NCBI RefSeq assembly: GCF_028712165.1
Contig: NZ_JAQTQR010000005.1
Span: forward strand, 1 to 58,119
DNA from: Sulfuricurvum sp.
GTDB lineage: Bacteria > Campylobacterota > Campylobacteria > Campylobacterales > Sulfurimonadaceae
Direction of reading: 5' to 3'
Length of the DNA stretch: 58,119 bases
The notes under the pieces are model-generated. The model searched no databases. It saw only the letters and a list, made by a program, of their open reading frames with translations, and was not told the DNA's origin. The position numbers and the translations under genes are program-made. This document shows, one piece after another, positions 51,673 through 55,514 of this stretch. The stretch's first letter is position 1; every line of letters begins with the position of its first letter.

Positions 51673-51716
51673 CTTTGGGAATCCCAAAGGGTGATTTGAC
51701 GAAAAATTTACCCTTT
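51673..51716 (+). terminator. Overlapping alternative hairpins after carA
   Basis: CTTTGGGA (51673-51680) pairs with TCCCAAAG (51682-51689). Alternatively AAAGGGT (51686-51692), which includes part of that right arm, pairs with ACCCTTT (51710-51716), followed by a T-run at 51725-51730. The two are mutually exclusive. The second looks more like a terminator for carA. Confidence 0.5.
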
Positions 51717-51840
51717 AGTGTTACTTTTTTACCCCTATTTCTGTAAATAAACTTAAATATATCGTTAAGTTTTCATATAGCGAAAAACATTTAATAATTT
51801 AAGATTGATTAAAAGCTCGTATTGCTATCATTAGAGTGTC

Positions 51841-51927
51841 TAATAGCCTACTTTTGTTACAAAAGTGTTAAGGGCATCTTTGATTTCACAAGTTTTGCGA
51901 AGTCAGAGGTGCCCTAATAGGCTCTTA
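51841..51927 (+). promoter_or_regulatory. Structured leader (three-way-junction-like) upstream of ccoN
   Basis: An outer stem TAA-T-AGCCTA (51841-51850) with TAGGCT-C-TTA (51918-51927) encloses two hairpins. Hairpin one is CTTTTG-TTA-CAAAAG (51851-51865). Hairpin two has a 17-pair stem (51871-51887 with 51899-51915, three G-T pairs, no mismatches) and an 11-base loop. The element ends 27 bases before the ccoN ATG and just before its AAGGAGG ribosome site. It could be a structured RNA or a set of operators. Confidence 0.6.
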
Positions 51928-51954
51928 TGCTTTGAATCTTTAAGGAGGTCGTAA

Positions 51955-53436
51955 ATGGAGAATCGTCCATTGGAGTATGATTACACGGTTGCGAAGATGT
52001 TTATGCTTACAACGGTGTTACTCGGAATCGTCGGGATGCTTGTCGGCGTTATTTTGGCGTGGGAAATGGCATTTCCTGCAGTCAATACAATTGCGGGATC
52101 AGGATTGGCAGAATATACAAACTTCAGCCGTCTTCGTCCGTTGCACACCGATGCAGTAATTTTTGGATTTACCTTTAGCGGTATCTGGGCAACATGGTAC
52201 TATGTTGGTCAACGTGTATTAAAAGTATCGATGGCTGAATCAAAATTCTTGATGTTCCTCGGTAAATTACATTTTGGACTCTACTTATTAGTAGTTGTTT
52301 CAGTTGTAGTTTCATTGTTGTTGGGGATTACAACATCAAAAGAATATGCTGAATTCGAATGGCCTATCGATATCGCAGTTGTTGTGGTTTGGGTTATTTG
52401 GGGTATGTCAATTTTCGGTTTGATCGGTATCCGCCGTGAAAAATCATTGTATATCTCTATTTGGTATTACATTGCTACTTTCTTGGGTATCGCAATGTTG
52501 TATCTATTTAACAATATGGAAATTCCAACGTATTTCGCATCAGGCGGAATCGGTGCATGGTATCACTCTGTTTCAATGTACTCCGGTACAAATGACGCGT
52601 TGGTACAATGGTGGTATGGACACAACGCGGTTGCGTTCGGATTTACTGTACCTATCGTTGCAATGATCTATTACTTCCTTCCAAAAGAATCAGGTCAAGC
52701 GGTTTATTCATATAAATTGTCTCTTCTTGCATTCTGGGGCTTGATGTTTGTTTACCTTTGGGCCGGCGGACACCACTTGTTGTTCTCGACTGTACCTGAC
52801 TGGATGCAAACAATGGGTTCTGTATTCTCTGTTGTATTGATTCTTCCGTCATGGGGTTCTGCGATCAATATGCTTTTGACCATGAAGGGTGAATGGCAAC
52901 AAGTTGCTGCAAGTCCATTGATCAAATTCATGATCTTGGCTTCTACATTCTATATGTTCTCAACTCTTGAAGGTCCGATCCAAGCGATCAAATCTGTTAA
53001 TGCACTTGCTCACTTTACAGACTGGATCGTAGGTCACGTACATGATGGTGTTCTTGGATGGGTTGCATTCATGATCATGGCTGCATTGTTCCATATGGCT
53101 CCGCGTGTATTCAAACGTGAGATTTATTCTAAATCATTGATGAATACTCAATTCTGGATTCAAACTCTAGGTGTTGTATTGTATTTCACTTCTATGTGGA
53201 TTGCCGGTATTACACAAGGTATGATGTGGCGTGCGCATGATGAATTCGGTAACTTAGCTTACTCGTTCATCGATACAGTTGCTGTATTGCACCCATATTT
53301 CACTATTCGTGCGGTAGGTGGTACATTGTATCTCCTAGGTATGTTCTTGTTTGCATACAACATGTACAAAACCATGACAAGTGGTCGTCGTGTTGAAGAA
53401 TCAGAGCTTCAATCAGCATCGCCGATGGGCGCATAA
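51955..53436 (+). CDS. ccoN: cbb3-type cytochrome c oxidase subunit I
   Basis: The catalytic haem b/b3-CuB subunit of the high-affinity terminal oxidase, in the inner membrane. It has 493 residues and about 12 helices. Conserved parts include HTDAVIFGFTFSGIWATWYY with the low-spin haem His, WWYGHNAVAFGFTVP with the CuB His and cross-linked Tyr region, GGHHLLFSTVPDW with the His pair and HVHDGVLGW with haem b3/b ligands. A strong AAGGAGG lies seven bases before the ATG. It is the first gene of ccoNOQP. Confidence 0.96.
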   Translation: MENRPLEYDYTVAKMFMLTTVLLGIVGMLVGVILAWEMAFPAVNTIAGSGLAEYTNFSRLRPLHTDAVIFGFTFSGIWATWYYVGQRVLKVSMAESKFLMFLGKLHFGLYLLVVVSVVVSLLLGITTSKEYAEFEWPIDIAVVVVWVIWGMSIFGLIGIRREKSLYISIWYYIATFLGIAMLYLFNNMEIPTYFASGGIGAWYHSVSMYSGTNDALVQWWYGHNAVAFGFTVPIVAMIYYFLPKESGQAVYSYKLSLLAFWGLMFVYLWAGGHHLLFSTVPDWMQTMGSVFSVVLILPSWGSAINMLLTMKGEWQQVAASPLIKFMILASTFYMFSTLEGPIQAIKSVNALAHFTDWIVGHVHDGVLGWVAFMIMAALFHMAPRVFKREIYSKSLMNTQFWIQTLGVVLYFTSMWIAGITQGMMWRAHDEFGNLAYSFIDTVAVLHPYFTIRAVGGTLYLLGMFLFAYNMYKTMTSGRRVEESELQSASPMGA

Positions 53437-55307: not shown

Positions 55308-55514
55308 ATGGAAAATCGTAGTATTTTTGCATTGGACGGTATCACTGGTATGTTAATTGCGACCGTATTGCTCCTCTCTATCCTCGTCGGTTTGACCGTT
55401 TGGGGATTGGGTGTACAACAAGGTAGTGCAAATAATTTTTACCAAATTCAAAATGAAAAAGAGATCCAAATGATTAGCACTGAAAATGCTACTCATAAGA
55501 TCGATGTAAAATAA
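55308..55514 (+). CDS. DUF4006 family small membrane protein
   Basis: A 68-residue protein with one membrane helix (about 13-34, GMLIATVLLLSILVGLTVWG) and a polar tail. FALDGITGMLIATVLLLSIL matches the DUF4006 family, which sits after ccoP in Campylobacterota and is presumed to help cbb3 assembly. The exact function is unknown. AAGGAG lies upstream, and it is 11 bases after the ccoP stop. Confidence 0.8.
   Translation: MENRSIFALDGITGMLIATVLLLSILVGLTVWGLGVQQGSANNFYQIQNEKEIQMISTENATHKIDVK

Follow-up and report, generated by a model that had tools for sequence, protein, structure and literature searches.

The ccoN leader and its fold

The DNA analysed here, called the window throughout, is a stretch of 58,119 nucleotides from a Sulfuricurvum genome, with a ccoN 98% identical to its nearest named equivalent, that of Sulfuricurvum sp. 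STB_35. 3′ of carA and 5′ of ccoNOQP, in which Pfam places FixO, FixQ and FixP behind ccoN, positions 51841-51927 form three helices, just as an earlier, sequence-only reading had claimed. Pairs, loops and mismatch can be read directly from the sequence: the outer stem has nine pairs and one mismatch (51844/51924), arm 1 has an optional seventh pair (51850-51866), and the 17 pairs of arm 2 include three G-U and no mismatch, with 27 bases left between the end of the structure and the ccoN ATG at 51955. Two extra outer pairs, G51838-C51930 and U51839-G51929, precede and follow this stretch, and the functional element should be taken as wider, from 51838 to about 51939. The features, all on the + strand, are the following.

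51798..51814, +: direct repeat TTTAAG-N5-TTAAAA, HP1043/HsrA-box-like, in the place of a -35 (exact match to TTTAAGNNNNNTTAAA)
51823..51831, +: extended -10, TG-C-TATCAT, read from sequence; a -10-like hexamer stands at the same spacing in relatives
51838, +: predicted transcription start and first base of the leader helix, a G 7 nt past the -10 hexamer
51838..51850, +: 5′ strand of P1, the conserved outer helix; pairs with 51918-51930 and covaries across 14 genera
51841-51843 with 51925-51927, and 51845-51849(50) with 51918/19-51923, +: outer stem, read from sequence
51850..51866, +: arm 1 hairpin with UUA loop (sequence and genus alignment; limited covariation)
51851-51856 with 51860-51865, +: arm 1 stem, loop TTA, read from sequence
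51855..51871, +: direct repeat TGTTAC-N5-TGTTAA, a likely DNA operator overlapping arm 1 (six exact genome copies)
51871..51915, +: arm 2 hairpin, variable cargo; compensatory change at 9 of 18 pairs in 22 sequences, short or absent in some relatives
51871-51887 with 51899-51915, +: arm 2 stem, 11-nt loop, read from sequence
51918..51930, +: 3′ strand of P1 (covariation in genus and family alignments)
51929..51939, +: conserved tail GCTTTGAATCT, overlapping the end of P1 (conservation in 86 leaders)
51942..51948, +: Shine-Dalgarno AAGGAGG, read from sequence; unpaired probability 0.61 in the predicted ensemble
51955..53436, +: ccoN (COX1), first gene of ccoNOQP (Pfam PF00115, E 7e-103)

Folded as RNA, the + strand reaches -36 kcal/mol (z about -6.5 to -6.7), which none of 200 shuffles matched, and the minus strand is less stable at -29.3 kcal/mol. 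Among the 16 leaders in the window, that of ccoN is the most structured (the runner-up has a z of -2.6), and the element is single-copy in the genome. An inverted-repeat search with a minimum length of 16 listed none at the element, presumably because of its G-U pairs, and arm 2 was rejected as a repeat or MITE, its base TTAGAGGTGCCCT having no convincing second copy. The Rfam scan of the window, at gathering and permissive thresholds, left the element below the gathering threshold of every family, with only a tRNA at 2-73 and sub-threshold chance matches to report, and no published ccoN leader study for this group was found in the openly licensed literature. Elsewhere in the neighbourhood, a palindromic hairpin just past carA (51673-51689), terminator-like on the minus strand, separates carA from the ccoN promoter, and directly 3′ of ccoP (window 55308-55514) lies the gene of a 68-aa DUF4006 protein, possibly a small cbb3-associated protein.

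Pairing in the genus and in the family

The upstream regions of ccoN were read from about 40 Sulfuricurvum genomes, and the 22 sequences with a long second arm make up alignment A1, whose RNAalifold consensus is the three-way junction, with compensatory changes at 13 of the 35 pairs. The three-helix structure is paired in 96.5% of cells against 88.2% in shuffles, double-change cells number 65 against 21.7 and covariation is 0.274 against 0.120, with 0 of 500 shuffles reaching the observed value in each case, figures which are not probabilities, as the shuffles keep the make-up of columns and not the relatedness of sequences. Slid versions of the same structure all score far lower. The signal peaks in arm 2, where one pair, for example, is AU, GC, UA or GU, and this arm evolves fast in sequence with its pairing kept. 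Arm 1 shows double changes at four pairs, all from one A1 sequence, and four more genomes (G120, G110, G070 and G126) carry a version of it, GAAUGUUACAUUUG, which also pairs by inspection. Outer-stem pairs are near-constant inside the genus, and arm 2 is short or missing in about a quarter of Sulfuricurvum.

At the level of the family we delineated 86 ccoN leaders from 14 genera, with stems misplaced by the script set by hand; G125 and G006, where a recognisable tail is absent, are excluded from the counts, and G011 and G111, unparsed by the start-codon filter, are absent from the set. In all 86 leaders the predicted transcript start is occupied by a helix, behind which come a near-invariant GCUUUGAAUC tail and then the Shine-Dalgarno, and in nearly all of them the helix takes the form GUYNANN-AGYYY...RRRCU-NUWAYGC. 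Counted over its six core pairs, 475 of 516 cells are paired, where the best of 2000 shuffles (whole 3′ strands redealt) gave 439, and reduction to the 46 distinct stems leaves 243 of 276 core-pair cells formed against 229 in the best of 5000 shuffles. At pairs 3 and 4 CG alternates with UA, at pair 2 GC alternates with AU, and pair 6 is AU, UA or CG. The 40 sequences of alignment A2 yield a covariation score of 0.434, against 0.228 in shuffles (0 of 500), with two of the five measures at shuffle level (pairs with double change, 308/500; further pair types, 398/500) and with one lower-stem pair, columns 5-56, unpaired in half of the sequences. The covariation that the sequence-only reading had asked of all three stems is thus strong in arm 2 and, family-wide, in the outer stem, and limited in arm 1.

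Across the 86 leaders, the core strands are separated by a loop of 2 to 80 nt. Since most other genera, and about a quarter of Sulfuricurvum, carry a short hairpin or a simple loop as this cargo, the three-way junction, which stands as the consensus fold of the 22 Sulfuricurvum relatives and not as the conserved core, is, judged from these sequences, a lineage-specific (Sulfuricurvum) elaboration of a conserved core helix. G-U cells far exceed A-C cells, 34 against 10 in the core stem across the family and 47 against 8 in arm 2 (counted from the A1 pair tables), which bears out the earlier hint that the G-T pairs reflect selection on RNA and, because of this asymmetry, marks the + strand RNA as the selected one; the antisense-transcript element also envisaged has to be given up, the minus strand folding worse besides. 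The mean z of the leaders is -3.8, against -0.3 for the DNA upstream of the promoter.

A covariance model built from A2 gives a match in 37 of the 61 family genomes scanned, always a single one, a number to be read with the model's capacity to miss long-loop members and the stricter filters of the scan in mind, and by coordinates 36 of these 37 matches lie directly upstream of ccoN, including genomes outside the training set (e.g., G000, G011, G015, G026, G041 and G058). The match in G020:C45 (E 0.0015), with no known ccoN alongside, is likely false, as the partly read DNA there showed no ccoN leader. In 184 genomes from other families of the same order the model gave 0 matches.

Two observations concern other lineages. 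In another genus (g11) there is a long arm whose base (GCATCTGC...GCAGGTGCCC) resembles that of Sulfuricurvum arm 2. In other Campylobacterota families, 23 ccoN leaders show a clear TATAAT (mean z -1.85), and 13 of them fold at z < -2, with hairpins unrelated in sequence to the Sulfuricurvum element, which hints at a 5′ hairpin on the ccoN mRNA as a wider theme in Campylobacterota; some of these hairpins may be DNA operators.

Predicted transcript start, nested repeat and tail

The first conserved G stands exactly 7 nt past a -10-like hexamer in 71 of the 86 leaders, and G+1 and T+2 are present in all 86, and on these grounds helix and transcript are predicted to start together, at 51838 in the window. 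Such a start, lying ahead of the structure, supports together with the compensatory changes among relatives, as far as sequence can tell, the earlier interpretation of the element as a cis-acting RNA. The ccoN promoter is without a -35 and was not listed by the sigma-70 scan. A TTAAG-N6-TTAAA-like repeat starts at -39/-38 in 70 of the 86 relatives and, in the window, an HsrA/HP1043-like box, TTTAAGATTGATTAAAA (51798-51814), replaces the -35, a box that recurs across the family at about -40 to -24 of ccoN (70/86). HsrA, an essential regulator of H. pylori, has the consensus TTTAAG-N5-TTTAAG, and HP1043/HsrA target promoters have AT-rich motifs where the -35 would be (PMC5253667). The HsrA-like box would thereby agree with a start at 51838, short of proving it. 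If the position of the start is as predicted, the first paired base is at or before +4 in 86 of 86 MFE folds, against 58% of shuffled leaders; even so, the closed 5′ end is to be read as a tendency, because ensemble pairing of +1/+2 has a mean of 0.49 over the family (0.72 in this leader).

Nested in this leader is a likely second kind of signal. The genome holds six exact copies of TGTTAC-N5-TGTTAA, including the one in the ccoN leader: one stands before a TonB receptor, two between divergent TonB receptors, one before a DsbD_2 gene and one near the boundary between Amt and phosphomannomutase. Only the exact sites carry weight, because the one-mismatch total (16) is below that of a reversed-pattern control (26). 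The copy at 51855..51871 contains TGTTACA, the HP1021/CemR box sequence, which is the best HP1021/Cj1509 box (PMC6052347), and in H. pylori ccoN-Q is no longer controlled by oxygen once CemR (HP1021) is lost (PMC11334517). In relatives, sites of this kind are also found upstream of the promoter. Since arm 1 coincides with a direct repeat that also precedes other genes, its role as RNA is less sure, and it may be conserved mainly as DNA. A direct-repeat regulon can tentatively be proposed from these sites. The presence of the repeat before TonB receptors and DsbD_2 (cytochrome c biogenesis) raises the possibility of a metal/redox regulon shared with ccoN, and the TonB receptor with the single upstream copy has sub-threshold similarity to haem and copper receptors. 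At G000:C113 8494-8501 two neighbouring reading frames together make up one TonB receptor, the result of either a gene frameshift or an assembly error.

The tail, GCUUUGAAUCUU, is 92-100% identical at most positions across the 86 leaders, with the last C of GAAUC at 81%, and is conserved above most of the Shine-Dalgarno. This conservation is beyond what a pure 5′ shield explains, and the tail might act as a standby site for ribosomes or be recognised by a factor. The Shine-Dalgarno has a family mean unpaired probability of 0.54; no alternative fold hiding it was seen in the predicted ensembles, and the search for terminators came up empty on the + strand.

What the helix may do

The element is kept paired across the family, probably to protect or regulate the ccoN mRNA. 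The most likely reading, which we believe has about an even chance of being right, is that a 5′-terminal helix shields the ccoNOQP mRNA from decay by RppH and RNase J. Transcription would start at 51838, making the element the 5′-terminal leader of this mRNA, and the first bases would join a helix closed by the pairs U51839-G51929 and G51838-C51930, with little or no free 5′ end. Downstream of this helix, whose loop consists of one or more hairpins, would come a short tail, open in part, and then the ribosome site. The double-stranded 5′ end would hinder triphosphate removal by RppH and block the entry of RNase J, and the outcome would be a long-lived oxidase mRNA whose Shine-Dalgarno is still accessible. 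For the extra arms pairing would be the sole requirement, whereas the GCUUUGAAUC tail would probably help ribosome loading or bind a factor.

Both enzymes are encoded in the genome, RNase J (639 bits) and RppH (249 bits) scoring above cut-off. RppH of B. subtilis requires at least two unpaired 5′ nucleotides (PMC3997798), and in H. pylori RppH renders RNAs targets of decay, with RNase J as the main RNase of the degradosome (PMC8322730), and the vacA 5′ stem-loop prolongs half-life through its pairing, not its sequence (PMC4843948). Pairing conserved with sequence left free, as expected of 5′ stabilising stem-loops, is what the genus and family covariation displays. The loop is free in sequence and length (2-80 nt), and therefore a structural rather than a ligand role fits; the free exchange of cargo with pairing retained likewise suits 5′-end protection. 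Two features speak against a plain shield, a tail that hardly varies and a lower helix conserved in sequence, both beyond need, and the presence at a single gene in each genome hints at a role peculiar to the cbb3 oxidase.

The main rival takes up exactly these points, in that a dedicated RNA-binding protein or small RNA would bind to the GCUUUGAAUC tail and to P1, a helix with pyrimidine mismatches, and tune ccoNOQP translation to the supply of oxygen, copper or haem. We consider it unlikely, yet serious, because the tail is conserved, being near-invariant in 86 leaders, and the element is restricted to a single gene; the invariant G+1 and U+2 and the fixed places of the helix mismatches point the same way, and the cbb3 oxidase requires copper and haem. 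On the other hand, no candidate regulator was found, the motif is on no other gene and no alternative fold burying the Shine-Dalgarno was seen. It is tempting to speculate further, though we think it unlikely, that in Sulfurimonadaceae the invariant tail and mismatch-bearing helix bind an undescribed regulator setting cbb3 synthesis to oxygen or copper, with interchangeable arms and a nested transcription-factor operator in the same 100 bp.

That the element is an operator or palindrome selected as DNA, the RNA fold being a by-product, seems improbable. Arm 1 would suit it, given that TGTTAC-N5-TGTTAA occurs before other genes and, in relatives, upstream of the promoter, but arm 2 and P1 change freely in sequence with their pairing kept, with many G-U and few A-C, and are unrepeated elsewhere in the genome; for these two helices such a reading is already unlikely. 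Less credible again is a metabolite- or metal-binding riboswitch, the sequence-only reading having spoken of a riboswitch-like RNA. In its favour is a three-way junction, in outline like some aptamers, before the operon of a metal enzyme. Yet close relatives have lost this junction or carry something else in its place, a plain hairpin stands there in other genera, Rfam offers no match, the + strand has no terminator and a ligand-binding riboswitch is unlikely because no conserved unpaired pocket, the tail excepted, and no alternative fold sequestering the Shine-Dalgarno were seen. A mobile or repeat element, or a structure of an antisense transcript, would account for the gain and loss of arm 2 among relatives, but can practically be dismissed given the single genome copy, the constant position in relatives, the poorer folding of the minus strand and a G-U/A-C asymmetry favouring the + strand.

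In Campylobacterota, cbb3 serves as the high-affinity terminal oxidase, and two genera of this phylum, Sulfurimonas and Sulfuricurvum, are major oxidisers of sulfur where oxic and anoxic zones meet. A conserved RNA at the very start of the cbb3 mRNA would add a layer of post-transcriptional control, and the natural compensatory variants permit a direct test of 5′-end protection in an RNase J bacterium.

No described RNA family was found for the element, which would act like the known 5′ stem-loop stabilisers. HRC-8-4, a candidate structured RNA also linked to cbb3 oxidase genes, is found in Rhodobacterales only and mostly between ccoP and ccoG (PMC8632094), whereas our element lies upstream of ccoN in Sulfurimonadaceae; membership was rejected and a relation is unsupported. 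The stem-loop in the 5′ UTR of H. pylori vacA, from the same phylum, shares the conservation of pairing rather than sequence: it is a hairpin at +4 to +30 whose disruption reduces mRNA level and half-life (PMC4843948). It differs in gene and sequence, is a simple hairpin 80 nt before the ribosome-binding site, is known within one species and has no conserved tail described. The stabilisers of E. coli ompA and papA and of B. subtilis aprE (cited in PMC3997798) likewise slow decay by 5′-terminal pairing and have no evident sequence relation to the element. What sets the element apart from these known stabilisers is a conserved helix with fixed mismatches, an invariant tail and a variable loop cargo, tied across a whole family to one gene.
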